From positions 1 through 64,000 of the forward strand of contig JASMJM010000022.1 in assembly GCA_030749725.1 (NCBI GenBank): a stretch of 64,000 bases of DNA. The letters are read 5' to 3'. Source of the DNA: Pseudomonadales bacterium. GTDB lineage: Bacteria; Pseudomonadota; Gammaproteobacteria; Pseudomonadales; Azotimanducaceae. This document shows positions 6,625 to 64,000 of the stretch, in pieces. The stretch's first letter is position 1, and each line of letters opens with the position of its first letter. The position numbers and the translations under genes are program-made. A model generated the notes under the pieces. The model was not told the DNA's origin. It did not search any database and was given only the letters and a program-made list of their open reading frames with translations.

Positions 6625-9118
6625 AGGGTTCGCTGGTGATATGGCGCACAGCCTGTAGAACGCCATACCTGAAATCACGTTCCAGGATGGGTTCAATGGC
6701 TGCGCTTATCTGCTTGAAATCTTCGCTTACAGTCAGTGCGCCAGCATTGATTTCGAGTTCCTTCCGTTGCACCAGCGTTGCCAGAAAGGTGGAGAACAAC
6801 GATTTTTCAAAGAACTCCGGCGCGTTGATTCCGTAAAGCACCGATATGTTCTGGGCAATATTGTGACAGGTACTCTCCAGCAGATCCCTCGTCAGGGAGA
6901 GTGTATCGCTCTGGTTCAGTAGCGAACAGGCGATGAAAAAACGCTGCAGCGTGGGTTCGACAATCTGAGCCAACACTGTCAGGGAGGCGAATTCAGGAGA
7001 CATGGGCGATGGCGAGTCTATACCGCCATCCCGTTTCACCGCTAAACCAATACTTATCATGACGTCAACGATGCGCTGACAGATCGAGTCCATCCCATGC
7101 AATGGCCAGGGGAGAAAGAATTCTGACTTAAGGTAGGGGTATAGGTCCTGGACGCTACCGAGCAGATTGTCGAGGGCCACGCCGGGATCTGTCTTAATCA
7201 GGCGTGCAATCAAAGACGGTAATGCTAACAGGTGGGCGACGTTGTTGCGGTAGTAAGTCATCAGTATCGCTACGTCTCCTTGTACGGAAAGAATGTCCCC
7301 AATGGGATAGGCGACGCGCTGGATCAGAGAAATCGTCTCAGCCTGCTCGATGATCTCATCTGTAGAGAAACTGGTTATCGTTATCTCTTCACTGTAAGGC
7401 ATGTTGCGCAGCAGTTGGAGATAGATCTGGATGTGCTGTTGTAAACTCGTTTCCTCTATGGCCTGCTTTGGGGTTGCGAGCAGGATCAGTGCCACCAAGT
7501 TGATTGGATTTACCGCGGCAGCCCTATTGATGTTGGTCGCGATTTCATCTGCCAACAAGGAACAGGCTTTGGAGAAATGATTCTTGTCGATGCTTTCCGG
7601 ATCCTGCCAGCCGGGCAGCTTGTCACTCAGAAATTCAGTCAGATATACCGGCTGACCGAAATTCACATTGACTGACCCGAAGGAGCTTCGCAGGGATCGC
7701 AATACTCGGAAGATGTCACCCAGAGATTCCTCCGTCTTCTCCTGGCCCTTTAGTTCTCCCAGGTAGGTGCTGGCCTCCAGTATCTTTTCATAGCCGAAGT
7801 AAACCGGCATGAACGCGATAGGCAGCGAGGGGTTTCGCTGGAAGCTTCTCATTGTCATGCTCAACATGCCTGTTCTCGGTCGTAACATTCGACCGGTTCT
7901 GCTTCTGCCACCTTCGATGAAGTACTCCACTGAATATCCCTTTATGAACGTCATATGGAGATATTCGTCGAACACCGTTCTATAGAGCTGGTCATCCTGA
8001 AAGGACCTGCGCATAAAGAAGGCGCCGCTGCGACGCAGAAAAGGGCCCACCAGGGCCAGGTTCATATTCTTACCTGCAGCGATATGAGGCGGCGTTAGCC
8101 CGTTCATGTAAAGGACATAGGAAAGCAGCAGGTAGTCCACGTGACTTCTGTGACAAGGCACATAGACGATCTCGTTTCCCAGGGCCAGTTCCTGAACCCG
8201 TTCGACATTCTCCACAACGATGCCGTTATAGAGTTTGTGCCAGAACCATGTCAGTAGCAGACAGAGAAAACGGATCACGCGATACGACTGGTGAGCAGCG
8301 ATCTCCTCAGCATAGCGGCGCGCTGTTGTTTCAATCTTCGACAGAGGCTTGTTTTGCAGCTTGGCTTCTTCAAGGATAGCGGCACGTACAGATGTGCTGC
8401 TTAGAAGCGAATCCAGTAAGGTGCGGCGGTGGGACAGGTCCGGCCCGAGAATGGCCTGCTTTTGACGCCGGTAGTGAACCCGCAGAATCCGGGAGAGTTT
8501 TCTGACTCTTCTTCTCTCATCTTTCTCGCCGTCGAAGAGTGCGCGTAGTGAAATCGGTCTGCTGTATTGGACGACGATATGGTTGTGTTGAAAAATCAGC
8601 GCCAGCATCCGTTTGAAGCCACTGGTGACTGACCAGTTATCTGAGAGGACAAGCTTGAACAGTGATTTTTCCCGCTCCGGGGCATGTCCCCAGAAAAGGG
8701 ACACGGGGACCAGCTGCACATCCATAGTCCGATTAGCAGTGAGTGTTTCCACTATGCGTAGCAGTCTTGGTGAATGGTGCCTTGAACTTTTTCTTTTGAA
8801 TAAACGCCCTTCCGTGTGGGCAAGGAAGAAGAAAGAGCGCCCCTCCTGCTCGAAACCGTTGGTCATCGCATCGTGGGGCCGTGGTAGATCAGCTTTTTCG
8901 CAGGAGTCGTCGACAACCAGCAAATCTGTCAGGGAACGGTTGGGGAGTACGTAGCAGACGGGCTTGGATAACTCAAGACCAAGCCGTTCGACATCATCCC
9001 CTATTATCTGTGGTCCAACCCATGCCAGGAGTAGTTTTCTCAGGACATGGTAGTGGAGTTCTTTTACCTTCGTAAACGAGAAACGCGTCTGTAACGAGTC
9101 TATCCCGTACGTCTTCAT
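6575..9118 (-). CDS. plsB: Glycerol-3-phosphate 1-O-acyltransferase PlsB
   Basis: First acylation of glycerol-3-phosphate in phospholipid synthesis, at the inner membrane. The large PlsB form (847 residues) carries the acyltransferase blocks in order: the HX4D motif (CHRSHVDYLLL), GAFFMRRSF, FIEGGRSRTGR and PVYFGYEKI. It lies 20 bp downstream of gspD on the same strand, and its tail overlaps rsmJ. Confidence 0.96.
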   Translation of the reverse strand: MKTYGIDSLQTRFSFTKVKELHYHVLRKLLLAWVGPQIIGDDVERLGLELSKPVCYVLPNRSLTDLLVVDDSCEKADLPRPHDAMTNGFEQEGRSFFFLAHTEGRLFKRKSSRHHSPRLLRIVETLTANRTMDVQLVPVSLFWGHAPEREKSLFKLVLSDNWSVTSGFKRMLALIFQHNHIVVQYSRPISLRALFDGEKDERRRVRKLSRILRVHYRRQKQAILGPDLSHRRTLLDSLLSSTSVRAAILEEAKLQNKPLSKIETTARRYAEEIAAHQSYRVIRFLCLLLTWFWHKLYNGIVVENVERVQELALGNEIVYVPCHRSHVDYLLLSYVLYMNGLTPPHIAAGKNMNLALVGPFLRRSGAFFMRRSFQDDQLYRTVFDEYLHMTFIKGYSVEYFIEGGRSRTGRMLRPRTGMLSMTMRSFQRNPSLPIAFMPVYFGYEKILEASTYLGELKGQEKTEESLGDIFRVLRSLRSSFGSVNVNFGQPVYLTEFLSDKLPGWQDPESIDKNHFSKACSLLADEIATNINRAAAVNPINLVALILLATPKQAIEETSLQQHIQIYLQLLRNMPYSEEITITSFSTDEIIEQAETISLIQRVAYPIGDILSVQGDVAILMTYYRNNVAHLLALPSLIARLIKTDPGVALDNLLGSVQDLYPYLKSEFFLPWPLHGMDSICQRIVDVMISIGLAVKRDGGIDSPSPMSPEFASLTVLAQIVEPTLQRFFIACSLLNQSDTLSLTRDLLESTCHNIAQNISVLYGINAPEFFEKSLFSTFLATLVQRKELEINAGALTVSEDFKQISAAIEPILERDFRYGVLQAVRHITSEPSKDTHQNDLISLAKQS

Positions 9119-9138
9119 TTTTTCTCAGGGAATCTCTT

Positions 9139-11055
9139 CTATGGTCGTTCACCATCAAAAAGACCGTCGATGACTTCTTTGGGATCGACACCTTCAATGA
9201 CGACCTCCCATACACCGGTAAACTTCCTCTCATTGATTTTGGCTGAGTCCTCCTTGGAGGCAAGGACGGTTGGTCTGAGGAATATGAGCAGATTTTGCTT
9301 CTCATACTTTTCTGCAGTGCTCCTAAATAGTCTACCCAGAAAAGGTATATCACCTAACAATGGAACCTTAGTATTACTGTTAGTCACCTTATCTCGCATC
9401 AGGCCTCCTAAGACGATGACTTCGCCGTTGTCAGCCAGGATGGTTGTTTCGAGCGTACGCTGGTTGGTGATAATATCGGCGGCGGCCTCTGCACCAATGT
9501 TCTGTAGATCATCCACTTCAGAGATCTCCTGCGAGACCTCCAGTCGAACCAGGTCACCATCGTGGATGTGAGGCGTAACCGTGAGCGTCAAGCCCACATC
9601 TTCCCTCGATATGGTGGTAAAGGGGTTGTTGGCGCCCTGACTGCCGGTAACCGTCGATCCGGTCCTGAAAGGCACGGTCTGACCTATGACGATTTTTGCT
9701 TCCTGGTTGTCCATTGTCATTATGCTTGGCGTTGACAGCAGATTGACATCAGAATTCAGTGACAGGGCACGAATAATCAAGGCAAAGTTGATACCGTCAG
9801 CATTGGTTTTTCCTGCGGCAAAAAGAGGAGCGTCGCCCAAGGGGGGTGCCGTTGTTAAAGTGGGATCCACTGCCAACGATTGAAGAAGTGATGCCAGAAT
9901 GCCCGATGGCGCTGTGATACCTAAAGGTAGTGACGAAGATGATGTATCACCGACGATCAATTCAGACCCCAACTGTTTTTCAAAATTGATGGTAACTTCA
10001 ACGATTGCCGACTCGATCAGTACCTGCAACCGTCGGACGTCCAGTTGCTGAACAATGCTTTTTATCTCAGCCATCGAGGTCGGATTGGCACGGATCACCA
10101 ACGCATTCAATCCCTCATCCGCTTGGATGTTAACAGCGTCATCCTGTGCGCCCGCTGCTTTCGGTGCTTTGGTCGTGTCCGTAACCAAGTTCTTGAGCAA
10201 TTCAGCCATGTCTGTGGCATCTGCATGGGCGAGGCGAATCACCTGGGTGGTGCCCGTGCGTGTAGCAGGTTGATCCAATTGTTCAACCAGGGCCTGCATT
10301 TTTTCAAGCGTCGAGCTCTCGCCCTTGAATACCAGACTATTTGTTCGTTCACTGGCAACTACTGTGACTCTGTTTGGACCTTTTGCCCCTTTGCCGATCT
10401 GTTCAGGGGCAATCTTTTCCAGCAGTGCAACCATATCTTCTACCCATGCTTCCTTGAGCTGCACGATTGCGAGCCTGGATGTATCGGCAACGTCGATTCT
10501 GTCGACAATGTCGATCAATCTGAGAATGTTTGAAGCGTGGTCGCTGATGATGAGCACATTGGGTGAAGCGAGTCCGGAAATAAAGCTATATTGTGGAATC
10601 ATGGGTCTGATTACCTTAACGAGTTCGACTGCCGATGCATTCTTTACCGGAATCACTCTCGTGATCAATTCTTCAGACGCCCGTTCTGAGGAGAAATCCA
10701 TGGTGTTTCCGCTCTGTTTTGCCAGAACCTGTTGGATGATCTTGACCACATCGCCTGCCGGGACGGCCGCGTAGCCATGCACACGCAGGACACTCAGAAA
10801 CAGTTCATAGGTTGCATCGATGTCGAGAGAAGTATTGGAGATAACCGTGACTTTACCTTTGACTCGAGGGTCGACTACGAAACTCTTGCCGGTGACAGTT
10901 GAGATCCAGGTAATGAACTCCTTAATATCGGAGTTCTTCATGTTAACCTTCCATGTCTGCTCTTCTGCCTGAAGATGAAGTGACAGGCTCAGAAGGAAAA
11001 CAGACACCAATATTTGCTTGGTTTGCAGCAGTAACCTACTTGTTGTTTGCTTCAC
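9139..11055 (-). CDS. gspD: Type II secretion system secretin GspD
   Basis: Outer-membrane secretin of the general secretory pathway. A signal peptide (hydrophobic VSVFLLSLSLHLQA) is followed by the N0 domain, N1-N3 repeats (for example VIPVKNASAVELVKVIRPM and TQVIRLAHADATDMAELL), and the C-terminal secretin core with VPLLGDIPFLGRLFRS. It is 638 residues long. It follows gspC by 148 bp. The inner-membrane and pseudopilus genes gspE-M are not nearby, so the system must be completed from another locus. Confidence 0.95.
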   Translation of the reverse strand: MKQTTSRLLLQTKQILVSVFLLSLSLHLQAEEQTWKVNMKNSDIKEFITWISTVTGKSFVVDPRVKGKVTVISNTSLDIDATYELFLSVLRVHGYAAVPAGDVVKIIQQVLAKQSGNTMDFSSERASEELITRVIPVKNASAVELVKVIRPMIPQYSFISGLASPNVLIISDHASNILRLIDIVDRIDVADTSRLAIVQLKEAWVEDMVALLEKIAPEQIGKGAKGPNRVTVVASERTNSLVFKGESSTLEKMQALVEQLDQPATRTGTTQVIRLAHADATDMAELLKNLVTDTTKAPKAAGAQDDAVNIQADEGLNALVIRANPTSMAEIKSIVQQLDVRRLQVLIESAIVEVTINFEKQLGSELIVGDTSSSSLPLGITAPSGILASLLQSLAVDPTLTTAPPLGDAPLFAAGKTNADGINFALIIRALSLNSDVNLLSTPSIMTMDNQEAKIVIGQTVPFRTGSTVTGSQGANNPFTTISREDVGLTLTVTPHIHDGDLVRLEVSQEISEVDDLQNIGAEAAADIITNQRTLETTILADNGEVIVLGGLMRDKVTNSNTKVPLLGDIPFLGRLFRSTAEKYEKQNLLIFLRPTVLASKEDSAKINERKFTGVWEVVIEGVDPKEVIDGLFDGERP

Positions 11056-11086
11056 AGAACCGACTCACTCTGTATGTAATCGAAAG

Positions 11087-11106
11087 CTGGTTAACTCAAT
11101 AACCAG
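11087..11106. other. Small hairpin between gspC and gspD
   Basis: A 7-bp perfect stem CTGGTTA / TAACCAG with a 6-nt loop, in the 148-bp spacer between gspC and gspD. It could stabilise or attenuate the polycistronic message. No U-run follows on either strand, so it is not a classical terminator. Confidence 0.3.
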
Positions 11107-11203
11107 GCTGAATAGTGACAGGGAGATGTTACTTTAATTTGCTCGAGAACCCAATTGATTAGATATCGGCCTAACGGATGTTGGTTGTTTGCTGTCCACT
11201 GAT

Positions 11204-12169
11204 CTAACGGATTGGCACGGTGATAAAAAACCGCCGTTCTTGTCTTTGAATTTCAACTCTGACGCGACCCGCCGCCATTGCCTGATCCACCATGGATCTG
11301 TCCTGCATGACATCACCCACAGGCCGACCGTTAACGGACAGAATTATATCCCCGCCCTGCAAACCTGCCTGCAGAAGCTGTTGCTGAGATATCTGATTGC
11401 CCACCCGATAACCGCTGGTTTCACCTGCAGAGACTGATTCAATGCCGAGTTCCCTCAGCACCGACTCGGGGTCACTGTCGATCCTCTCTCGGTAGGAACT
11501 GACGACGTCGCTGATGGATCTCTGCTGAGTCGCGCTGCTGCTACTTCTTTGTCTGCTCTCTGCCTGTTTTTGGCGCGCCCTTTGTAACCTCGACTCTCTC
11601 AGCTTTTGGCTGCTTCTTCTGTCCCTGCGCTGGGGCTTTGTCGCTGGTCGCTCGCTGGTCGCTGCTTCGATGGCTGTTGACTGAAACGCGTCTTCGCTAA
11701 ATCTCAACTTTTCATAGCGGGAACCACGTTTAAACAGGATGTGATCATCGTGGACGGCAGAGAGAATAGCATTGCCGGGCAGCCGGTCACCGATACGGTA
11801 GAGTTCACCTGTCTTGTTGGACTCTGACACTATGGCAGTCGATTCAGCCTGGTTTTTGGCGGTAAACACGCCCTTCAATTCAAGGTTCAGCTTGGTCTCG
11901 GGTGCATCCAGATCCGGTGAGATATTTTTCTGCTCGACAACACCAAATAGATTGAAATCCGCAATGCTGGTCTTTTTCGTGTTGCTTGGCGTTCGAGATT
12001 GACCCTGTTCGACCGGATCTGGCGGTTCGATGGGAGATTCCGTTAGATTGTCGATGCCAAACAGTGCTGTATCGGCGATGGAGAGAGTAATCAGCACGAC
12101 CAACAGAAACATAGTCATTCTTGCTAGATTTTGGCTGTGTTTTGAAAAAAGATCCAAGAATAGATGCAC
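11204..12169 (-). CDS. gspC: Type II secretion system protein GspC
   Basis: Inner-membrane clamp protein that contacts the secretin. It has one N-terminal membrane segment (MTMFLLVVLITLSIADTALF), an HR domain (ELKGVFTAKNQAESTAIV through YRIGDRLPGNAILSAVHDDH), an Arg/Gln/Ser-rich linker (about residues 175-220), and a C-terminal PDZ-like domain (GLQGGDIILSVNGRPVGD). It is 321 residues. The charged low-complexity linker is longer than in most homologues. Confidence 0.9.
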   Translation of the reverse strand: MHLFLDLFSKHSQNLARMTMFLLVVLITLSIADTALFGIDNLTESPIEPPDPVEQGQSRTPSNTKKTSIADFNLFGVVEQKNISPDLDAPETKLNLELKGVFTAKNQAESTAIVSESNKTGELYRIGDRLPGNAILSAVHDDHILFKRGSRYEKLRFSEDAFQSTAIEAATSERPATKPQRRDRRSSQKLRESRLQRARQKQAESRQRSSSSATQQRSISDVVSSYRERIDSDPESVLRELGIESVSAGETSGYRVGNQISQQQLLQAGLQGGDIILSVNGRPVGDVMQDRSMVDQAMAAGRVRVEIQRQERRFFITVPIR

Positions 12170-12268
12170 AGGAGATCTCTACCGGACGTGATCATTTACC
12201 TTAACAGGGAACACCGTTATATTCCATGTAAACAGGCATCTGTGTGCCCTCCAAGCTGATTGGGGTCG

Positions 12269-13012
12269 TCACCATATCTTCTCCTCTACCTCCAGTACAA
12301 CATCGTCGGGTGCGCCCGGGATCGGCCACGGCTGGGCAGCCAGGTCGAATAGGCGACCTCTGAGGACAACCTTCCCCCAACCGTTTCGGTCAAGCCGAAC
12401 AGCCAGTACGGGAAGTTGCTTATCTTTCTCTTTTATCTGCAGAGTAACCTCGGATGATTGCAGCGCCAGGTCACCGATTAACGGTGGCAGTTCATATAAA
12501 TCGGTGGTGCGATAGGTGGAGTATCTAACTGCGCCGCCCGACCATTCAAGATCCCCACTCAACTGCTCAATCCAATTGTCTTGTATGTGGAATGCCAAAT
12601 CATGCAGATCCAGGCTACCGGACACCTGAAGGCCGTACTTGTGTATTACCGGATTGACCGCCCCTGCCTGGATGATTCCTGATAGCTCGCTGATCTGCAG
12701 ATAATTGGATGCAACTGAAACAACCGTCGTCAACTGATGGAAGGAGCCGTCTATATTCAGATGGGTCTTGAGCTGGCCCGTCATCAGGTCGAGCGGCTTG
12801 ATCTGCCATGCTACCTTTCCAGGTTTCAGGAACTCCCCGTCCAAGATGGCAGAACCGCGCCAGACAGTGCCTTCAATTCTGGACAAGGAGACCAGCGGGG
12901 CCGCGTACTCATCCCCGAATGCTTGCCAGATGATTCGCGCCGGCGCAAAGAGAACCACAAAAAGTACGAAGGTGACAGTTCCGACAGCGAGATATGTTTT
13001 GAAGTGACTCAT
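12269..13012 (-). CDS. gspN: Type II secretion system protein GspN
   Basis: Inner-membrane-anchored accessory protein of the type II secretion apparatus, with one N-terminal membrane segment (YLAVGTVTFVLFVVLFAPA) followed by a beta-rich periplasmic region beginning SRIEGTVWRGSA, typical of the GspN family. The frame is open from a GTG at 13048, but that part lies in a duplicated 21-bp repeat; the ATG at 13012 gives the usual N-terminus and 247 residues. It is first in the gspN-gspC-gspD order. Confidence 0.85.
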   Translation of the reverse strand: MSHFKTYLAVGTVTFVLFVVLFAPARIIWQAFGDEYAAPLVSLSRIEGTVWRGSAILDGEFLKPGKVAWQIKPLDLMTGQLKTHLNIDGSFHQLTTVVSVASNYLQISELSGIIQAGAVNPVIHKYGLQVSGSLDLHDLAFHIQDNWIEQLSGDLEWSGGAVRYSTYRTTDLYELPPLIGDLALQSSEVTLQIKEKDKQLPVLAVRLDRNGWGKVVLRGRLFDLAAQPWPIPGAPDDVVLEVEEKIW

Positions 13013-13022
13013 TTGAATACTT

Positions 13023-13064
13023 ATCACTTGGTGAGCTTCCGTGATCACTTGGTGAGCTTCCGTG
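13023..13064. repeat. Perfect 21-bp tandem duplication before gspN
   Basis: Two identical adjacent copies of a 21-bp unit beginning ATCACTTGGTGAGCTTCC (13023-13043 and 13044-13064) lie 10 bp upstream of the gspN ATG. The identity implies a recent event. It changes the spacing of any leader or ribosome-site sequence of gspN. Confidence 0.9.
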
Positions 13065-13083
13065 ATCTAGGAAGCAGGTCATT

Positions 13084-13476
13084 TCACCAGGTTATGACAG
13101 ATTCACCCTCCTGACAAATGCTCAGCCACTCATCCGGATTCTGTTCCGGTGACCATGATCCGGCACAGCATCTGACTTCCACCCGGAGATGACGGAATGC
13201 ATCGCGCGCGCAATCGAGGTCCGATTCCCAAGGGGTGTTGGGGGAATCGAAGAGGACACTGCTGTAACCATCCAGGACCTTCTCAACGATGATGATCCTG
13301 ATGGTTGCAGTGTCTGTTTTAGCCAGCAAGTGATGAGTGGTTGAATTGCCCTTCGCCTCTGTGTCCGGCAGTAACAAAACGAATCTTTTCTTCAACCACT
13401 CGACGATATCGCTTAGTCCTTTACTGAGCAGATAGATCTCGATATCGGCATAGACTGGCTTGGCTTTTCCATTCAT
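13084..13476 (-). CDS. Conserved-looking hypothetical protein downstream of dapE
   Basis: I do not recognise a named family. The 130-residue protein begins MNGKAKPVYADIEIYLLSKG, is soluble, has mixed alpha/beta character (an IRIIIVEKV strand, then VLFDSPNTPW), and ends with a WSPEQNPDEWLSICQ segment carrying two Trp. Codon use and position (28 bp after dapE, same strand) support a real gene. Co-transcription with dapE is the only clue to role. Confidence 0.65.
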   Translation of the reverse strand: MNGKAKPVYADIEIYLLSKGLSDIVEWLKKRFVLLLPDTEAKGNSTTHHLLAKTDTATIRIIIVEKVLDGYSSVLFDSPNTPWESDLDCARDAFRHLRVEVRCCAGSWSPEQNPDEWLSICQEGESVITW

Positions 13477-13504
13477 AGCAATCCTCGTGAGGCCAATGTA
13501 AGCA

Positions 13505-14641
13505 TTACGTCAGTAGTACCTCCAGGACTGTCCCGTAGATTTCGGCGAGTTGATCGAGTTCATTTACGCTTACACATTCGTTCGCCTTGTGAATGGTCTG
13601 ATTGACGGGGCCCAACTCCACCACTTCGGCGCCGGTGGGCGAGATGAATCGACCATCCGATGTCCCGCCGGACGTGGATAGTGCCGTAGCGCCGCCGGTC
13701 ACCTTTTGAATGCTCTGTTCTACAGCAGTGATAAGCTGGCCCGGCGAAGTGAGGAAAGGCTCTCCGGAGAGATTCCACTCAAGGGAATAGTCAAGCCCAT
13801 GCCCATCGAATATTTGCTGGCAGCCTTGCTGCAGGGATTCCACGCTGGATTGAGGTGAATACCTGAAGTTAAAGAGAACTTCCAGCGAACCCGGTATGAC
13901 GTTTACGGCTCCGCTGCCGGCATGCAGGCTCGAGATCTGCAAACTGGTTGGTGGGAAAGTCTGATCGCCACCGTCCCACTCCCTGCTGACCAGTTCAGCC
14001 AGTGCTGCCAGAGACTTGTGAATAGGATTGTCGGCGAGCGCCGGGTACGCTACGTGTCCCTGGGTGCCTTTGATGAACGCTCGACCGTTTAGCGAACCCC
14101 TACGACCGATCTTCACGGTATCACCGAGAGTGGTTTCGCTACTGGGTTCACCAACGAGGCACCAGGTTATCTGTACGCCGCGTCGTTTTAGTTCACGCAC
14201 CACTTTGACTGTACCGTCGACGGCATCTGCTTCCTCATCGCTGGTGATCAAGAAGCCGATGCTGCCCTTGTGATGCGGATTGGACGCCACAAAATCCGCC
14301 ACTGCAGTGACCATGGCGGCGAGACTGCCTTTCATATCGGCTGCGCCTCTGCCGTATAGAAATCCATCCTTTATGGTGGGGAGAAAAGGTGGATCTATCC
14401 AATCGTCCAGGAGACCGGACGGAACCACGTCTGTGTGGCCAGCGAACACAAAGAGGGGTGAAGCGTCGCCGCGAGTGGCCCAGAAATTGCTGACATCACC
14501 ATAGGGGAGGTGCTCGATCTCAAATCCCAGCTCTTCCAACTGCGCCGTCAAGAGCTGTTGGCAGCCACCATCATCGGGAGAAATTGATGGGATGCCAATG
14601 AGTTTCTGTGCCAGTTCCAGAGTCGACGATAGTCCTCCCAT
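13505..14641 (-). CDS. dapE: Succinyl-diaminopimelate desuccinylase DapE
   Basis: Dinuclear zinc M20-family hydrolase removing succinate from N-succinyl-LL-diaminopimelate in lysine and cell-wall synthesis. The metal motif FAGHTDVVPSG (near residues 66-76), GRGAADMKGS, the catalytic TSDEEADA, LVGEPSS and the late TSGGTSDGRF are present. It is 378 residues, the usual length. It lies 44 bp after dapD on the same strand, so three pathway steps are adjacent. Confidence 0.96.
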   Translation of the reverse strand: MGGLSSTLELAQKLIGIPSISPDDGGCQQLLTAQLEELGFEIEHLPYGDVSNFWATRGDASPLFVFAGHTDVVPSGLLDDWIDPPFLPTIKDGFLYGRGAADMKGSLAAMVTAVADFVASNPHHKGSIGFLITSDEEADAVDGTVKVVRELKRRGVQITWCLVGEPSSETTLGDTVKIGRRGSLNGRAFIKGTQGHVAYPALADNPIHKSLAALAELVSREWDGGDQTFPPTSLQISSLHAGSGAVNVIPGSLEVLFNFRYSPQSSVESLQQGCQQIFDGHGLDYSLEWNLSGEPFLTSPGQLITAVEQSIQKVTGGATALSTSGGTSDGRFISPTGAEVVELGPVNQTIHKANECVSVNELDQLAEIYGTVLEVLLT

Positions 14642-57239: not shown

Positions 57240-58487
57240 ATGTCGCTCATAGTGCAGAAATTTGGTGGCACATCAGTCGGATCCATCGAACGCATCGAAA
57301 ATGTTGCCCGCAAGGTGATAAGCACCAAAGCCCAGGGGAACGATGTGATTGTCGTGGTGTCGGCAATGGCCGGTGAAACAGATCGGCTAAAAGCGCTGGC
57401 AGACGAGGTCGGTGCTGATTCTTCGTCTGATCACCAGCGCGAGATCGATGTCCTTCTGTCGACCGGAGAACAGGTATCGATCGCACTGCTCAGCATGATG
57501 CTGAAGAAACTTGGCTGCCGGGCAAGATCCTATACAGGTGGTCAAATCAGGATTCTGACCGATGACGCCCACACCAAAGCGAGAATTCAGGAGATCGACA
57601 CGGAGAAAATAGGCAGTGATCTTGCGGCGGACAAGGTGGTTGTAGTGGCCGGTTTTCAGGGAGTAGACAGTTCAGGCAACATCACCACATTCGGTCGTGG
57701 TGCTTCCGATCTGACCGCGGTGGCCATCGCCGGGGTTATGGCGGCGGCCGAATGCCGGATATACACGGATGTTGACGGTGTCTACACAACCGATCCAAAC
57801 GTCGTGGAGGGCGCCAGGTGTCTTGAAAGCCTTACTTTCGAGGAGATGCTGGAACTCGCCAGCCTGGGCTCCAAGGTACTTCACACCAGAGCGGTGGAAC
57901 TTGCCAGCAAATATAAGTTACCCATCAGAGTGCTATCCAGTTTTAACGAATCACCTGGAACACTGATTACCAGCGAGGAAGAACTTGATATGGAAAGACC
58001 GATGATATCGGGTATTGCCATGACCAGAGATGAAGCGAAATTGACCGTGTTGGGCGTTGACGATGTGCCCGGCATTGCACACAAGATTCTGGGACCCATC
58101 AGCGCTGCCAATATTGAAGTCGACATGATCGTGCAGAATGTCGCTGCCGACAACAGCACGGATTTCACCTTCACCGTGGCCAGAGCCGACTATGAAAAAT
58201 CTATGGATATTCTAAAAAAAGTTGCCAAAGACATTGAAGCGAGAGAATTTACAGGAGACAATAAAATTGCAAAATTGTCTCTGGTGGGAGTTGGTATGCG
58301 CTCCCACGCTGGCGTAGCCAGCAAGATGTTTGAAACATTAGCTGATGAATCGATAAATATTCAGATGATATCCACATCCGAAATCAAAATATCAGTGGTC
58401 ATTGCCGAAAAATATCTGGAATTGGCGGCGCGAGCGCTGCACTCCAAATTTGATCTTTCTGCAATAGCAGACTCGGAGCAAGAGTGA
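57240..58487 (+). CDS. lysC: Aspartate kinase
   Basis: First step of the aspartate family (lysine, threonine, methionine). VQKFGGTSVGSIERI at the N-terminus, LLSTGEQVSIALLSMML, GRGASDLTAVAIAG, and two ACT domains at the C-terminus (about residues 265-410) that bind allosteric effectors. It is 415 residues, the monofunctional type. AAGGGA precedes the ATG. No lysine riboswitch was seen in the 126-bp leader. It feeds the dapC/D/E steps encoded earlier in the window. Confidence 0.95.
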   Translation: MSLIVQKFGGTSVGSIERIENVARKVISTKAQGNDVIVVVSAMAGETDRLKALADEVGADSSSDHQREIDVLLSTGEQVSIALLSMMLKKLGCRARSYTGGQIRILTDDAHTKARIQEIDTEKIGSDLAADKVVVVAGFQGVDSSGNITTFGRGASDLTAVAIAGVMAAAECRIYTDVDGVYTTDPNVVEGARCLESLTFEEMLELASLGSKVLHTRAVELASKYKLPIRVLSSFNESPGTLITSEEELDMERPMISGIAMTRDEAKLTVLGVDDVPGIAHKILGPISAANIEVDMIVQNVAADNSTDFTFTVARADYEKSMDILKKVAKDIEAREFTGDNKIAKLSLVGVGMRSHAGVASKMFETLADESINIQMISTSEIKISVVIAEKYLELAARALHSKFDLSAIADSEQE

Positions 58488-58663
58488 CAGATCAGTGACA
58501 CTTCTTGCCATGCTAACGAGTTTTGTGTGTCGCAAAAGGGAATTTGAAGGAAGTACGGATAGTCGAATTGTTGTTTTAGGATTAAGTGCTAACACGTCCT
58601 TTGCTGTTTGTGGATGCTGGTCAGTACTTAATAGATGGTGACAAAGGCAGATGTAGTTTGTCT

Positions 58664-58691
58664 GCGACAATAAAACAATGTATGGCATAAT
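58664..58691 (+). promoter_or_regulatory. Probable csrA promoter
   Basis: Extended -10 TGG-CATAAT (58686-58691) with a -35-like GCGACA (58664-58669) and a 16-bp spacer. The predicted start is about 18-20 nt before the ATG at 58716, leaving a short leader with AAGGAGA. It lies in the 228-bp lysC-csrA gap. Confidence 0.5.
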
Positions 58692-58715
58692 AAGAGAAAT
58701 ATAAGGAGATGGCGA

Positions 58716-58913
58716 ATGTTGATTTTGACTCGAAGAGTCGATGAAACCCTGATGATTGGCGATGATGTTACGGTTACTGTACTTGGCGTGAAAGGTAACC
58801 AGGTTAGGATAGGAGTAAATGCGCCAAGAGAAATAGCCGTTCATCGCGAAGAAATCTATCTGAGGATTCAAAGAGAGAACGAAGAATCCGACAAAAACGG
58901 CACCAATGACTAA
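58716..58913 (+). CDS. csrA: Carbon storage regulator CsrA/RsmA
   Basis: Dimeric RNA-binding translational regulator. [36 protein letters not shown] and the RNA-contacting [15 protein letters not shown] are all present. It is 65 residues. It has a strong ribosome site (AAGGAGA) and its own likely promoter. The serine tRNA that often follows csrA is not present. The GGA-rich RNA at 49088 is a candidate antagonist. Confidence 0.97.
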
Positions 58914-58975
58914 TGCCTGACAAAGCGACCTGGAACCATCGCATACTCGCTTCCCGCCGAAACAACAACTGATAA

Positions 58976-59023
58976 GTCCACAACAAGAAAAGGAATCAAA
59001 CGATTCCTTTTCTTGTTGTGGAC
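58976..59023. terminator. 22-bp perfect hairpin between csrA and the CoA-transferase gene
   Basis: Arms 58976-58997 and 59002-59023 are exact complements (GTCCACAACAAGAAAAGGAATC) with loop AAAC. It lies 62 bp after csrA and 3 bp after the convergent CoA-transferase stop. No long U-run follows on either strand, so it may act as a bidirectional terminator or RNA-stabilising stem. Confidence 0.75.
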
Positions 59024-59026
59024 CTC

Positions 59027-60307
59027 CTAAATCACACCATCTCTGGTGAATGATCGAATCTCATCAGGCGAAAACCCAAGTGCTTCGTAAACCTCCTGAT
59101 TGTCTTCCCCAGCCAGCGGCGGCCGTCGCGTGATATGCCACGGCGTCTTCGACAGTTTGTATGGTGAGCCCGGGTAGGTGATGGTTCGGTCCAGTTCCGG
59201 GTGCTCCACAGCGACAGCCATCCCTCTGGACTGAAAGTGTTCATCGTCTATCATCTCTTCAGGCGAATAGATGATAGACACAAGCAAACCGTGATCCTGT
59301 CCGTAGCGAAAGAAATCATATGCGTCAATTTCTTTAGCGATAAAGATTAGTGCCTCTCGTGCTGCCGTTAGCATATCACGCACCTTCGGTTCAGTGCGCA
59401 ACTCTTCGGCTGTTATTGGGCCTCGATCCATGCCTGCCCTTAGTAGTTCAGTTGCTTCGAACGAATGCAGCAGATCAAGCTCCCCCAACCAGTCATGGAT
59501 CACTTTGAACATGGCTGGCGTACGTGCTGCGAAATTCAGATTCACATATCGACCGTCTGCACACTGAACCTGGCTCGGGTTGGATGGAGCTAGGCCGGCA
59601 TGACGGCCCGTCTGACGCTCCACCTGCTGGTTCGCAACCAGCCATCTAAATGATCCTGCTTCGGTGGTGACGTTGATGGCAGCGTTGAAGTTGACATCGA
59701 TAAACTGGCCTTCATCGGTCTGATCCCGATGCAGTAAGGCGACCAGCAGACTTAGCACGCCATAATGACAGCCGGTATGATAACCCTGGTTACCGCCGCC
59801 TCGAACTGGCGGCAGAGTGTGGTCGTCGTAGCCATTCATCCAGGCGATACCTCCCCCCGCCAGCAGGGTCAGATCCGTTGCCAGTTCATCCTTGCGTGCG
59901 CCATGGCGACCGAATGAGGTCATGGAGAGCCAAATCAGGCGTGGGTTGCTGGCTGTGACCTGCCGGTAATCGATCCCGAGGCTTTCCGCAAGACCGGGCG
60001 ACTGACTTTCTATGACGGCATCGGCGCCCTTCACCAGCTCCTTGAACAGCGTCTGGCCCTGCTCGCAGGTAAGATCCAAGGTGATGCTCTTCTTACCCGT
60101 ATTGTAGTTCCAGAACCACAGACTGCGTTCCGGATGCGGTGAGTCGTCCACAAAAGGTCCGTATTGCCTGGTTGCATCACCACTCCCAGGGGGCTCTATC
60201 TTGATTAGCTCAGCCCCCATGTCTGCGAGCAACTTACCCGCCCAGGCACCTTTCTCATCACACCATTCGATGATTCTCAGATCGTCGAGGGCCCGTGGCG
60301 TATTCAT
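59027..60307 (-). CDS. Class III (CaiB/BaiF) CoA-transferase, Asp-containing subunit
   Basis: Family III CoA-transferase, 426 residues: LRIIEWCDEKGAWAGKLLADMGAELIKIEPP, NYNTGKKSITLDL, GLAESLGIDY, and a candidate catalytic Asp145 in the TDLTLLAGGG block, where the family has its nucleophile. The C-terminal REPPLAGEDN-like segment (RRPPLAGEDNQEVYEALG) is typical. It overlaps the upstream gene by 4 bp (ATGA), so the two products are probably translationally coupled and may form a heterodimer. The substrate is unknown. It has no close functional tie to csrA across the hairpin. Confidence 0.85.
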   Translation of the reverse strand: MNTPRALDDLRIIEWCDEKGAWAGKLLADMGAELIKIEPPGSGDATRQYGPFVDDSPHPERSLWFWNYNTGKKSITLDLTCEQGQTLFKELVKGADAVIESQSPGLAESLGIDYRQVTASNPRLIWLSMTSFGRHGARKDELATDLTLLAGGGIAWMNGYDDHTLPPVRGGGNQGYHTGCHYGVLSLLVALLHRDQTDEGQFIDVNFNAAINVTTEAGSFRWLVANQQVERQTGRHAGLAPSNPSQVQCADGRYVNLNFAARTPAMFKVIHDWLGELDLLHSFEATELLRAGMDRGPITAEELRTEPKVRDMLTAAREALIFIAKEIDAYDFFRYGQDHGLLVSIIYSPEEMIDDEHFQSRGMAVAVEHPELDRTITYPGSPYKLSKTPWHITRRPPLAGEDNQEVYEALGFSPDEIRSFTRDGVI

Positions 60308-61560
60308 ATGGCACCATCCTCCCTTAACGCGTCAATATCCCGGTCGGATAGACCGAGAAGTTCACCGAATACATAATCATTGTCTTCGCCGAGGCAGGGA
60401 CTGGCCTTGCGCATCTGCCAGTCCGTTTTGGAAAGGTGCGCGGGTATGCCGTCGACCCGCACCTCACCCATCTCGGTGTGCTGCACGGAAGGCCACAATC
60501 CCCAATCACTGGTATTGGCATCCCCATCGATCCGCTCGCCGGGTTTACGCACGGGAGCAGCGGGCAGCGCAGCGCTCTGCAATCGATCAGACAGTTCAAT
60601 CTTGTCAAAGCCCTGCGTCCAGGAAGCCATCAATGCATCTAATTCAGTCTCGCGGGCAAGACGTTCTGTCAGCGTATCGAAGCCGGCATCGTTCACCCAG
60701 CTTGTCCCGACCTCATTCTTCAAGGCGAGCCAGTCGACGTCGTTGCGACATGCGATGGCAATCCAGTTGTCGTCACCGATGCATGGATAGATATTGTGGG
60801 GAGCCATCGCCGGGGAGTGACTGTGATTTGCATCGGGCATCCCATGACGGCGCTGGGGTCGCCGATTGACCGTGTAATCGAGCACTGCAGCCCCGTGCAG
60901 GACGGCCCCGGCCTCCGTCGCCGCCACATCGACATACTGACCCTCACCGGTGCGATTGCGATAGTGAATGGCCATCATTATAGCCATGGCCATGTAATAG
61001 GCCGCGGTATGGTCCATGTAGGAATATCCGTAGCCGGCAGGCTCCTGATCGGGCAGTCCCGAGGCAAAGGTCAGACCCGATGCCGCTTGCGCAATCGGTC
61101 CCATGGATTTATAGGTGCTGTACGGGCCCGTATGACCGAAGCCGCAATTGGTGGCGTAGATCATCTCCGGCCTGACACGGGTCACGGCCTGGTAGGAGAA
61201 ACCCAAACGATCCAATACGCCTGCGGCGAAATTCTCGGTCAACACGCTGCAAGTCTCGATCAAGCGCCAGGCCAGGGCTTTGCCCCGTTCATGCTTGAGG
61301 TTGATGGTGACGCCCAGCTTCCCGACGTTGTGATTGTTCCAGCCGCCACCAAGATTGATACCGGAACGCTCATCCACATAGGGTGGCCTGCCCCGGATCA
61401 TGTCCCAACGTCCCTGGCGTACCGGGTCTTCAATGCGGATCACTTCAGCGCCAAATGCTGCCAGAAATTTGGTGGCGCCGGCGCCCGCCAGAATGCCACT
61501 GAAGTCACACACTCGAATGTTGGCGAGAGGGCCGGCAGGATTCTGTGGTTCATTGATCAT
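60304..61560 (-). CDS. Class III (CaiB/BaiF) CoA-transferase, subunit lacking the catalytic Asp
   Basis: Same family, 418 residues from the ATG at 61560 (AGGTGG upstream; a TTG at 61569 is an alternative). NIRVCDFSGILAGAGATKFLAAFG, LGVTINLKHERGKAL, ENFAAGVLDRLG and GEGQYVDVAATEAGA are typical. At the nucleophile position the sequence is KSMGPIAQAASG, with Gly where the partner has Asp. Loss of Asp in one of two adjacent genes is expected for a heterodimeric enzyme such as benzylsuccinate CoA-transferase (BbsEF). The substrate cannot be named. Confidence 0.82.
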   Translation of the reverse strand: MINEPQNPAGPLANIRVCDFSGILAGAGATKFLAAFGAEVIRIEDPVRQGRWDMIRGRPPYVDERSGINLGGGWNNHNVGKLGVTINLKHERGKALAWRLIETCSVLTENFAAGVLDRLGFSYQAVTRVRPEMIYATNCGFGHTGPYSTYKSMGPIAQAASGLTFASGLPDQEPAGYGYSYMDHTAAYYMAMAIMMAIHYRNRTGEGQYVDVAATEAGAVLHGAAVLDYTVNRRPQRRHGMPDANHSHSPAMAPHNIYPCIGDDNWIAIACRNDVDWLALKNEVGTSWVNDAGFDTLTERLARETELDALMASWTQGFDKIELSDRLQSAALPAAPVRKPGERIDGDANTSDWGLWPSVQHTEMGEVRVDGIPAHLSKTDWQMRKASPCLGEDNDYVFGELLGLSDRDIDALREDGAI

Positions 61561-61675
61561 TTTGGTCAACCACCTATTATTGTTCTACGCAGACCGGGTG
61601 TAGGGATAACAAACCTTCGTTTTATTTAACGTCACGCAACTTGTGCTCAAGACAATTTAAATGGAACCGTGAACT
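61561..61675 (-). promoter_or_regulatory. Upstream region of the CoA-transferase pair
   Basis: This spacer must hold the promoter for the two CoA-transferase genes unless they are read through from the oxidoreductase gene. On the minus strand a TTGAGC, 16-bp spacer, TAAATA pair is a weak candidate. A CTTG-AGCA-CAAG inverted repeat overlaps the -35-like box. Confidence 0.3.
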
Positions 61676-62605
61676 CTAGTCGAAGGCAGCTAGCACCTCA
61701 GCATCGAATCGCTGATACCCCTCGAGATCGTCGGCTGGAATACCGCCGAACATGATTTCGTCAACACCTGCCTCGACAAACTTGCCTATGCAGTCGATCA
61801 CATAATTCTTGGGCCCCGCGAGCGTTCCGGCGCCCAGTCTGCGGTTGGCGAGGAATGCCGCAGCGGCCGACTCATCATCCGTGACCATGGTTGGCATCAG
61901 GATTGTGCGTTTGATCTCGCCAAAGTCTCGTCCTACCTTGTCACAGTGTCTCTTTAGCACATCGAGTTTGTGCTGGTAGTACTCAACTGACATGGGTCCG
62001 CCCGCCCATCCGTCCAGGTTGAACACATCTCCGTGCAGCGCCAGAGTGCGCAGCGTACGTTTCTCGCCGGTACCACCAATGAGGATGGGAAGTGGTTTCT
62101 GAAAGCAGCCGGGAGATAGCGGCGCTCGGTCAAGCTTGTAGTAACGGCCGTCAAAATCAACAGGTCCATCTCCCACAAATAATGCCCGAATCAGCTCACA
62201 GGCTTCCTGCAGGCGATCTGAGCGTTCCCTCATCTCCGGGAACGTCCAGCCGTATGCTTCGTGCTCGCGCTTGAACCAGGCGGCGCCGATGGCGAGTGTA
62301 AATCGACCGTGGGAGATCTGGTCGATCGTTGCGGCCATTTTTGCCACCAATGCCGGATTCCTGTACGTATTGCCAAGCACGAGGTGACCCAGTCGCAGGC
62401 GCTCCGTGAAACCGGCCACTGCAGCCGTTATCGTATAACCCTCGTAAGCCGTGAGATGTTCCTCCTCCGGCCTGCCGGGTGGCGGCAGGAAGTGATCCGC
62501 AAACCAGACGCTGCTCCAACGTCCCGCCTCCATGGTCTCAACCACGGTTCGTATGTCATCCCAATCAATCCTGTAACAGCTGACTTGAGCGCCGAATTGC
62601 ATCAT
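61676..62605 (-). CDS. Luciferase-like (LLM class) flavin/F420-dependent oxidoreductase
   Basis: A 309-residue TIM-barrel protein of the bacterial luciferase superfamily: WSSVWFADHFLPPPG, LRLGHLVLGNTYRNPALVAKMAATIDQISHGRFTLAIGAAW, KREHEAYGWTFP, and ILIGGTGEKRTLRTLALHGDVFN. The segment order fits the F420-dependent LLM class often annotated in actinobacteria, but the cofactor (F420 or FMN) cannot be read. It is co-directional with the CoA-transferase pair and divergent from the glycyl-radical enzyme. Confidence 0.85.
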   Translation of the reverse strand: MMQFGAQVSCYRIDWDDIRTVVETMEAGRWSSVWFADHFLPPPGRPEEEHLTAYEGYTITAAVAGFTERLRLGHLVLGNTYRNPALVAKMAATIDQISHGRFTLAIGAAWFKREHEAYGWTFPEMRERSDRLQEACELIRALFVGDGPVDFDGRYYKLDRAPLSPGCFQKPLPILIGGTGEKRTLRTLALHGDVFNLDGWAGGPMSVEYYQHKLDVLKRHCDKVGRDFGEIKRTILMPTMVTDDESAAAAFLANRRLGAGTLAGPKNYVIDCIGKFVEAGVDEIMFGGIPADDLEGYQRFDAEVLAAFD

Positions 62606-62658
62606 GTGCTCCCTTTCGTTGCGTCTGGTGGAAATCTCAAATTCAAACTACCCGTCAG

Positions 62659-62687
62659 AATATAGATCAAGCAGATCTGTAAGTGAA
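62659..62687 (-). promoter_or_regulatory. Promoter of the oxidoreductase gene with embedded operator-like palindrome
   Basis: On the minus strand TTCACT (62682-62687), 17-bp spacer and TATATT (62659-62664) form a good sigma-70 promoter. The spacer contains the palindrome AGATC-AAGCA-GATCT (62664-62678), which is well placed for repressor binding. The regulator is not in the window. Confidence 0.5.
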
Positions 62688-62753
62688 TGCTTTCTGGTGA
62701 TTCGCCTGTTCCATCCGGGTAGTCCGAACCAAACCGAATCAACCGCGTCTACT

Positions 62754-62783
62754 TTGACACTCTGACTGGTATTCGCGTATTCT
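62754..62783 (+). promoter_or_regulatory. Promoter of the glycyl-radical enzyme gene
   Basis: A perfect -35 TTGACA (62754-62759), an 18-bp spacer and TATTCT (62778-62783) lie about 33 bp before the ATG at 62816, which also has GGAG eight bases upstream. Promoter and start agree well. Confidence 0.6.
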
Positions 62784-62815
62784 TATATCCTCACCCAGAA
62801 CATGGAGATTCTTCG

Positions 62816-64000
62816 ATGCTGGACAGGGTAAAGCATGTAGACAGAGTCTTAACAATAACACCTACAGCAAGGGTCGAACGGCTAAGGCAAAGATATCTCG
62901 ATACCAGGGACAAGGCCGTCATCGACATGGGCCGAATCATCACCAGGGCGATGAAGGAAACTGAAGCTGAACCCCGCGTAACCCAGGGCGCCAAAGCCTT
63001 GGCCGCAACAGCGAGGGAGACACCAGTCAACATTTACCCGGATGAGCTGTTCGTGGGTTGGCTGTGGTCTGAGCCGCGTGGCACCGAGGTCGGCGTGTCG
63101 TCGTTCGGTCTGGAGAGGGAGCTGGATACGCTCAGCACGAGGGAATACACCCCATTTCTCATCAGTGAGGAGGTCAAACGCGAGCTGCGCGAGGAGATTT
63201 TCCCCTACTGGCGAACACGCTATTGGGCGCCGGCTGTGCCACCGGAAGCCACCAAACTCGGTATCAAGCACGCTGCGGAAACAAAGTTCCTGCCGCACAT
63301 TGCCGTCAACTATGAGAAGGTTCTAAAGAAAGGGCTGCTTGGCGTGATGCAGGACGCAGAGGACAGGCTGGCCAGGCTCGATCCCACTGATCCCGTAGAG
63401 GTAAAGAAGATTCCCTTCCTAAACGGCGTCATCATCGCGCTTGAGGGAGCATCCGAACTTGGCTTGAGGTTTGCTGCCGAGGCACGGCGACAGGCGTCGA
63501 CGGAAAAGGACAGCAACAGAAAGTCCGAGCTGCTCAAGATAGCTGAGGTCTGCGATCAGGTACCGGCCAATCCTGCCAGAACTTTTTACGAAGCACTACA
63601 GTCGGTTTGGTTTACCCATATGATCCTCGGCTGGGAAGTGGGATTCCACGGTGGCATAAGCCCGGGCAGAGCCGATCAATATCTGTATCCCTATTATGCC
63701 AACGACATAGAGGAGGGGAGACTTACAGAAGATGCGGCACAGGAACTACTCGACTGCTGGTGCATGCGCTATTCGCAGATGTTTACCCTATCCACCGAGG
63801 GTGGCGCTCGATTTATGTCCAATCACACGTCGGGGCACCACATTGGTATCGGTGGTATGAAGGCCGATGGCAGCGACGCCAGCAACGCCCTTTCATATAT
63901 GTTTATCGAGTCGATGATGCACACGCCTGGGATGGTGGAACCTACCCTTGGACTGCTGGTGCACAGCAGGACCCCGGAGTCCTTGCTGATAAAGGCTTGT
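62816..64000 (+). CDS. Pyruvate formate-lyase-like glycyl-radical enzyme, N-terminal part (3' truncated by window edge)
   Basis: 395 codons are open to the window end, about half of a usual 780-850-residue enzyme. Family features: TPTARVERLRQRYLDTR, EAEPRVTQGAKALAAT, NIYPDELFVGW, NPARTFYEALQSVWFTHMI, SPGRADQYLYPYYANDIEEG and LTEDAAQELLDCW, matching the PFL2/dehydratase branch rather than PflB itself. The active-site Cys, the C-terminal glycyl radical motif and any activase lie beyond the window. The substrate is unknown; dehydratase, decarboxylase, lyase or fumarate-adding enzyme are all possible. It is divergent from the oxidoreductase gene. Confidence 0.82.
   Translation, partial: MLDRVKHVDRVLTITPTARVERLRQRYLDTRDKAVIDMGRIITRAMKETEAEPRVTQGAKALAATARETPVNIYPDELFVGWLWSEPRGTEVGVSSFGLERELDTLSTREYTPFLISEEVKRELREEIFPYWRTRYWAPAVPPEATKLGIKHAAETKFLPHIAVNYEKVLKKGLLGVMQDAEDRLARLDPTDPVEVKKIPFLNGVIIALEGASELGLRFAAEARRQASTEKDSNRKSELLKIAEVCDQVPANPARTFYEALQSVWFTHMILGWEVGFHGGISPGRADQYLYPYYANDIEEGRLTEDAAQELLDCWCMRYSQMFTLSTEGGARFMSNHTSGHHIGIGGMKADGSDASNALSYMFIESMMHTPGMVEPTLGLLVHSRTPESLLIKAC

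Follow-up and report, generated by a model that had tools for sequence, protein, structure and literature searches.

The accessory block and its surroundings

The stretch of DNA analysed here (hereafter, the window) comprises the first 64,000 nucleotides of contig JASMJM010000022.1 (hereafter, C22), which ends at 75524 and belongs to a Pseudomonadales bacterium. The assembly of this host (G000) has 3.84 Mb in 173 contigs, with 96.6% completeness and 3.04% contamination, and all loci compared here come from draft genomes. At the end of the window lies an accessory block of four genes, two encoding class III CoA-transferases, one a luciferase-like (LLM-class) flavin/F420-type oxidoreductase, and one a glycyl-radical enzyme (GRE). 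Enzymes of the last type, which are oxygen-sensitive, open whole anaerobic pathways, including those for toluene, choline, isethionate, and hydroxyproline. The GRE of the block belongs to a distinct eliminase-type clade, no member of which scored over any curated functional cut-off tested, and its neighbourhood points to an anaerobic degradation pathway without a known counterpart.

The four gene families that an initial annotation had recognised in this region were confirmed by Pfam matches far above chance. CoA-transferase A (426 aa; 59027..60307, minus strand; PF02515, 246 bits) is the half without the catalytic Asp, and CoA-transferase B (421 aa; 60304..61569, minus strand; PF02515, 302 bits) is the half with it; the two genes overlap by 4 bp. 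The LLM gene (309 aa; 61676..62605; PF00296, 140 bits) lies on the same strand, and the GRE gene runs in the opposite direction (plus strand) after a gap of 210 bp (62606..62815). This divergent intergenic region holds a sigma-70-like site (10/12) at 62754-62783, which is a consensus match only; nine such sites were found in 58300-63000, against 4.3 in shuffles. Only the first 395 of the 795 GRE codons are in the window (62816..64000), and the open reading frame (ORF) stops 1.2 kb further on, at contig position 65203. The full-length protein (795 aa) matches PF02901 (565 bits) and PF01228 (102 bits), and both its catalytic residue, Cys443 (position 64142), and its glycyl residue, Gly771, are encoded beyond the window.

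ORFs were listed from 80 aa in the window and from 100–120 aa beyond it, a size range that may not include small subunits of the BssB/BssC type; outside the family scans, genes were called with a longest-ORF script and many were named by eye from their translations. Named in this way are the AlaRS-, aspartokinase- and CsrA-like ORFs upstream of the block, the last at 58716-58913. Between the CsrA-like ORF and the block, the strong hairpin of the initial annotation was recovered as an inverted repeat (58976..59023) with perfect 22-bp arms and a loop of 4 nt. It was absent from the terminator-like sites of our scan, which numbered four against a mean of 4.1 in shuffles, and among the 192 loci examined the repeat arm matched at its own place alone (L009). 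Extension past position 64000, which the initial annotation had called for, yielded the rest of the GRE and, on the minus strand, genes for an OppFDCB-type transporter, then HypB, which passes the TIGR00073 cut-off, an ORF named HypA-like by eye, and a gene for an Fe-S protein. A crotonase gene (plus strand) follows 8 kb from the GRE and then a TauD-type gene (minus strand). HypB and the HypA-like ORF (L009 13313-14340, past the window) adjoin the Opp/nickel-type transporter, and no hydrogenase was seen among the neighbouring ORFs read. The GC content of the block is 0.556 versus 0.521 for the whole window, and none of the 89 records from a tblastn comparison with plasmids reached 60% identity.

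An eliminase-type branch of the glycyl-radical enzymes

Both Pfam domains over cut-off, together with Cys443 and Gly771, place the protein in the GRE superfamily. Against the PFL2/glycerol dehydratase subfamily model (TIGR01774) it scored 575.6 bits, below the curated cut-off of 678.2, and it stayed at or below 57% of every cut-off for full-length GRE equivalogs. The scores were 531 bits versus 1050 needed for choline TMA-lyase CutC (TIGR04394), 516 versus 1100 for trans-4-hydroxyproline dehydratase HypD (NF043068), from which the GRE also stands apart in the trees, and 574 versus 1000 for (2S)-3-sulfopropanediol dehydratase HpsG (NF048011). A sequence search with the GRE gave E values of 6e-151 for CutC, 3e-89 for MasD, and 7e-77 for BssA.

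The host genome has eight PF02901 matches, i.e., the window GRE, five proteins 46–53% identical to it, and two at 32–33%. A scan of genome contigs with the single GRE protein found no relatives; those listed next were obtained with a six-row alignment, keeping the best 80 of 578 loci. Such searches score limited candidates (one listed five of the host's own six clade GREs), and copy counts are therefore lower bounds. Among these best 80 loci were a same-family genome (G089; PBRC01000004.1) with a GRE 57% identical to that of the window, Lokiarchaeal metagenome-assembled genomes (MAGs) with GREs at 52% (JABXKD010000031.1), 48% (JAFGGO010000108.1), and 47% (JAEOTR010000030.1), and a deltaproteobacterial MAG at 47% (JAFGHS010000028.1). 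The closest of the relatives found, at 64%, is encoded on contig C55 of Lokiarchaeal genome G229.

In a 102-row tree made with a quick method, 12 GRE rows formed one clade (support 100), apart from the rows passing the CutC (L107) and HypD (L061) cut-offs. A more careful 23-row tree recovered a 13-row clade at 100/100, in which the window GRE and the G229 C55 GRE are sisters (98/96). The full-length GRE thus falls outside the named dehydratase clades, and the divergence noted in the initial annotation is borne out by both the phylogeny and the sub-threshold scores. The clade comprises at least six members in the host, one each in G089, G227, and G228, and two each in G229 and G230; by lineage, these are six from the gammaproteobacterium, one from the same-family genome, five from three Lokiarchaeal MAGs, and one from the deltaproteobacterial MAG. 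Because both halves of the clade contain Lokiarchaeal as well as gammaproteobacterial rows, the tree suggests that GRE genes were transferred between the domains at least twice, in either direction. Locus GC is 0.36–0.37 in G227 and 0.32–0.33 in G229, consistent within each genome, and 0.54–0.56 at the six clade-GRE loci of the host.

The clade is sparsely distributed among bacterial relatives of the host. Five of 206 same-family genomes matched the alignment, two of them (G000 and G089) with clade-level scores and the rest with 403, 343, and 50 bits. In a class sample of 369 genomes, only the host and G244 passed an E value of 1e-170; the catalytic site of the G244 protein (645 bits) reads GCVV, and this protein was not counted as a member. 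The host also encodes a 73-aa C-terminal GRE piece (G000:C50:54374-54580; L026, L034; 64% identity) that follows an in-frame stop and preserves a glycyl motif, DGYNA; it may be a remnant or a spare-part-like cofactor.

All 13 clade GREs keep the catalytic Cys, a Glu at +2, the radical Gly, and a His aligned with glycerol dehydratase His164, a position at which the two CutC rows have Asp. In such lyases the conserved Glu deprotonates the substrate hydroxyl, according to PMC6453916. The columns of glycerol dehydratase His281 and Asp447 are changed in 13/13, so that one of the three glycerol dehydratase residues compared (1r8w) is retained. We take all three to be residues around the substrate in that enzyme. 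In the clade, the position after the Cys is occupied by H, N, Y, F, I, L or S, and 8/8 chosen comparators have Val there; "not Val" was dropped as a clade signature when other non-clade GREs were also found to lack it, as was an ALPSGR loop that is also present in 8id1 and 2f3o.

The predicted fold agrees with an eliminase-type enzyme. The AlphaFold model is that of a relative (L039; 57% identical, pLDDT 91.6) rather than of the window GRE itself, and it matched propanediol dehydratase best (Z 52.0, rmsd 1.7, 753 aligned residues), followed by glycerol dehydratase (Z 51.6), CutC (50.5), and HypD (49.5). Lower values were obtained for 4-hydroxyphenylacetate decarboxylase (42.2), MasD (40.6), and BssA (39.0). 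The VIA structure comparison was a second look at Foldseek's own matches, and the Foldseek ranking was similar to the Z order. Given the Cys and the Glu at +2 throughout the clade and a fold nearest to dehydratases and lyases, the toluene/benzylsuccinate analogy drawn in the initial annotation fails for the GRE (Z 52 for diol dehydratases versus 39 for BssA); it holds for the CoA-transferase, as described below.

Activases, LLM oxidoreductases and CoA-transferases around the clade

The host encodes two activases that pass the TIGR02494 cut-off, one on contig C112 and one on C68. Neither adjoins a clade GRE or passes an equivalog cut-off for a known activase. They are of the type that accompanies the clade elsewhere, sharing 49–51% identity with the activases that immediately precede the clade GREs in L040 and L042; the C68 activase is 62% identical to one in Lokiarchaeal G227 and the C112 activase 66% identical to one in G089. 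At the radical-SAM Cys triad, CS[ST]PxT was present in 6/6 clade activases and in 0/51 other pattern-matched ORFs in the loci examined. The activase that the initial annotation had hoped to meet downstream is thus represented by two clade-type genes, both of them elsewhere in the genome. Since these are unlinked to the clade GREs, activation of the latter in the host would have to occur in trans.

The window LLM is nearest to NCBIfam TIGR03560, falling below its cut-off (211.3 versus 231.4 bits). F420 and FMN enzymes appear together among its matches by sequence and by fold, the model being of moderate quality (pLDDT 75.1, from a two-row alignment). CofE was over cut-off in G000, G089, G227, and G229. 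F420 can probably be synthesised in the host, because CofE is followed there by CofD-, CofC- and FbiC-like ORFs on contig C45. This run (L195, G000:C45:12000-31999; 7975-14285) consists of CofE, CofD-like, CofC-like, and FbiC/CofGH-like ORFs and an LLM, all named by eye except CofE, and is apparently a complete F420 operon in a gammaproteobacterium.

The LLM recurs with the clade in Lokiarchaeal G227. At L038, an LLM 51% identical to that of the window lies 1.5 kb from the clade GRE, the two being separated by a single ORF (385 aa) that has no Pfam match. The second copy, 48% identical, is found 72 bp from a clade activase that begins 80 bases from the end of contig C177, in a one-strand run of OppB, OppC, OppD, OppF, LLM, and activase (OppD and OppF named by 42% and 48% identity to those of the window, the permeases by eye). 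One of the four GRE matches and one of the two activases in this genome are at clade level, and two of its three LLM copies (about 49% identity or more) lie within 2 kb of this GRE or this activase; for two or more to do so by random placement, P is ~2e-5. The LLM is probably a partner of the GRE subfamily. In the host, any LLM lies within 5 kb of three of the six clade GREs (C22, C147, and C46), those of C147 and C46 being only remotely like that of the window.

Each half of the CoA-transferase pair matches its own counterpart in benzylsuccinate CoA-transferase (9fn0), the best solved match for both. CoA-transferase A gave E values of 3.7e-47 for chain A and 7.3e-22 for chain B, and CoA-transferase B gave 5.7e-52 for chain B and 2.7e-27 for chain A. 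The window pair therefore consists of two different class III subunits, as in BbsEF and as the initial annotation had it. The catalytic column has Asp in CoA-transferase B and Tyr in A, and an alignment of five pairs or fusions (C22, C125, C46, C11, and C131), out of about 16 in the host genome, showed exactly one catalytic Asp in each.

CoA-transferases are found near the clade GREs in gammaproteobacteria. In the host, one was located within 10 kb of 5/6 clade GREs versus 2/31 LLM genes (Fisher p = 2.7e-4), the LLM genes serving as a control from another catabolic family. With the window left out, the fractions were 4/5 and 1/30 (p = 4.7e-4); at 5 kb they were 4/6 and 2/31 (p = 0.003), 10 kb being the stronger of the two distances tried. 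The distances to the five clade GREs are 0.1, 1.3, 2.9, 4.1, and 5.7 kb, and there is no CoA-transferase on the 17.6-kb contig C147. Two non-clade host GREs were excluded from the count, those of C131 (CoA-transferase 17.6 kb away) and C170 (none on the contig). In G089 (L126), a single CoA-transferase lies 2.0 kb from the clade GRE.

Other neighbours recur as well. A glyoxalase-fold protein (45% identity) is common to the C125 GRE locus of the host (3.4 kb from the GRE) and L038 (8 kb). At a distance of 0.4 kb from the C170 GRE lies a thiamine-diphosphate enzyme that has a counterpart (67% identity) 2.5 kb from the G089 activase; among solved structures, 2-hydroxyacyl-CoA lyase and benzaldehyde lyase are nearest to this enzyme. 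An NAD epimerase adjoins the LLM in both G089 C57 and G227 C177 (62% identical); the family (L147:8937-10184, L140:11035-12114, and L144:7887-8969; 46–62% identical) occurs in the two gammaproteobacteria and a Lokiarchaeon, with the LLM alongside at two of these three places. Contig C112 carries another pair of overlapping CoA-transferase genes with an LLM gene after it (L196, G000:C112:14000-32000; 7321-10462), about 13.5 kb from the GRE activase on the same contig.

A possible pathway, its alternatives and known systems

The interpretation we favour, tentatively, is that the GRE represents an eliminase-type subfamily, as yet uncharacterised, that has passed between Asgard archaea and gammaproteobacteria, and that the LLM and CoA-transferase are its probable partners. 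In the absence of oxygen, an activase would form the Gly771 radical, which Cys443 would take over to abstract hydrogen from a hydroxyl-bearing carbon. Glu445 would accept the hydroxyl proton, and with the departure of a neighbouring leaving group an aldehyde or a ketone would result. The LLM enzyme might perform a redox step on the GRE substrate or product, perhaps using F420, the order of the two enzymes being a guess. The resulting acid could then receive CoA from the A/B CoA-transferase and enter beta-oxidation. A broader proposal, possible though more doubtful, is an undescribed anaerobic module common to both groups through interdomain transfer. It would combine the new GRE eliminases with an F420-dependent LLM and would have been amplified sixfold in the gammaproteobacterium, with different asymmetric CoA-transferases for related substrates and two trans-acting activases.

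Several observations weigh against the favoured interpretation. The residue roles are carried over from other families, and none of the host's clade GREs has an activase beside it. No LLM adjoins either of the window GRE's two closest relatives, G229 C55 (64%) and G089 C10 (57%), and a window-type LLM adjoins 2/13 clade GREs, the window itself being one. Five of the eight LLM copies (about 49% identity or more) have neither a GRE nor an activase in the stretch read, i.e., the third in G227, the one in G229, both in G089 (71% and 60%), and that on host C24 (52%). The Opp order in the Lokiarchaeal OppBCDF-LLM-activase run is like that of OppBCDF and the LLM in the window; transporter synteny is not claimed, since against the Lokiarchaeal permease the window permease scores 53.7 bits and the best host match, on C15, 93.6. 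No CoA-transferase was found by tblastn beside the clade GREs in L038, L040, L041, and L042, or by eye in L191, and the CoA-transferase link therefore rests on gammaproteobacteria. The host genome has 45 class III CoA-transferase domain hits, including nine ORFs of about 800 aa with two such domains, and 31 LLM hits; with such abundance, catabolic genes may simply cluster. Co-occurrence of the block's genes, which the initial annotation had proposed as a check, thus extends for the LLM to one Lokiarchaeon, where one copy adjoins a clade GRE and another a clade activase, and for the CoA-transferase to two gammaproteobacterial genomes only.

These points lend themselves to a different explanation, in which the GRE is real and new and the LLM and CoA-transferases are chance neighbours that serve other pathways in a catabolic island. 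The numbers of CoA-transferase and LLM hits in 3.84 Mb, the lone LLM copies, the LLM-free closest relatives and the opposite strand of the GRE would all fit such an arrangement, which we regard as a serious if doubtful possibility. Set against it are the enrichment of CoA-transferases near clade GREs (5/6 versus 2/31) and the archaeal LLM copies that adjoin a clade GRE and a clade activase.

That the GRE belongs, as a divergent form, to one of the known eliminase families (choline lyase, or glycerol/propanediol, hydroxyproline or sulfopropanediol dehydratase) and acts on the ordinary substrate seems unlikely. The fold, the Cys/Glu pair and the His164 column kept in 13/13 would agree with this, whereas the CutC, HypD, and HpsG scores, the His281 and Asp447 columns changed in every member, and the separate clade argue for a subfamily of its own.

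We consider it very improbable that the GRE is a fumarate-adding enzyme of the benzylsuccinate or alkylsuccinate synthase type feeding a BbsEF-like CoA-transferase. The CoA-transferase pair is indeed BbsEF-like, and there is a precedent in print: PMC8163825 interprets five Hermodarchaeota GREs (29–33% identity to AssA1), along with GREs from five Lokiarchaeota genomes, as alkyl/benzylsuccinate synthases. PMC6258724 describes pflD and assA as hard to distinguish from other GREs. A BSS-like GRE was rejected here on sequence, fold and active-site columns, the large subunit not being nearest to BssA/MasD (E 7e-77/3e-89 versus 6e-151 for CutC; Z 39–41 versus 50–52). The Glu at +2 is kept, and no acyl-CoA dehydrogenase or thiolase was seen among the nearby ORFs read. 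Binning of the GRE contigs from another organism is likewise highly improbable, for while the draft has 173 contigs and 3.04% contamination, nearly all relatives searched lack clade GREs and the block is richer in GC than the window, contig C22 joins the AlaRS-, aspartokinase- and CsrA-like genes to the GRE, GC is uniform (0.54–0.56) at all six clade-GRE loci, and the clade GRE of the same-family genome sits on a 234-kb contig.

Literature searches of titles and abstracts found no publication describing this GRE clade or a GRE-LLM pairing, and a search for a link with sponges likewise gave no result. The eliminase-type subfamily is of interest as a clade without members over the functional cut-offs tested, with its own activase type, present in Lokiarchaea and in a six-copy gammaproteobacterium, and with an LLM companion in both. 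If the published Asgard GREs fall in the clade, its active site, which argues for an eliminase, would bear on what such archaea live on.

Compared with known systems, the GRE is closest to the 1,2-eliminases, i.e., glycerol/propanediol dehydratase, CutC, HypD, and the N-methyl-hydroxyproline dehydratases, which share the fold (Z 46–52 for the L039 model), the Cys, the Glu at +2, and the glycyl motif. They differ in being only 34–36% identical to L039 and in lying outside the clade; the window GRE also departs from them at the His281/Asp447 columns and in having an LLM and a CoA-transferase as neighbours. BssA and MasD share the GRE superfamily with it and are more distant by sequence and fold, and BssA presumably lacks the Glu at +2 that the window GRE keeps. 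The CoA-transferase pair resembles BbsEF in its two overlapping class III genes and differs in that no acyl-CoA dehydrogenase or thiolase was seen among the ORFs read around it and in being one of about 16 pairs or fusions in its genome. With known LLM enzymes (TIGR03560; F420-dependent Fgd, Adf, and Mer; FMN-dependent RutA, MsuD, and SfnG) the window LLM has the Bac_luciferase domain in common; it differs from the TIGR03560 family in scoring below the cut-off and in that window-type copies adjoin a GRE or its activase in both a bacterium and an archaeon.

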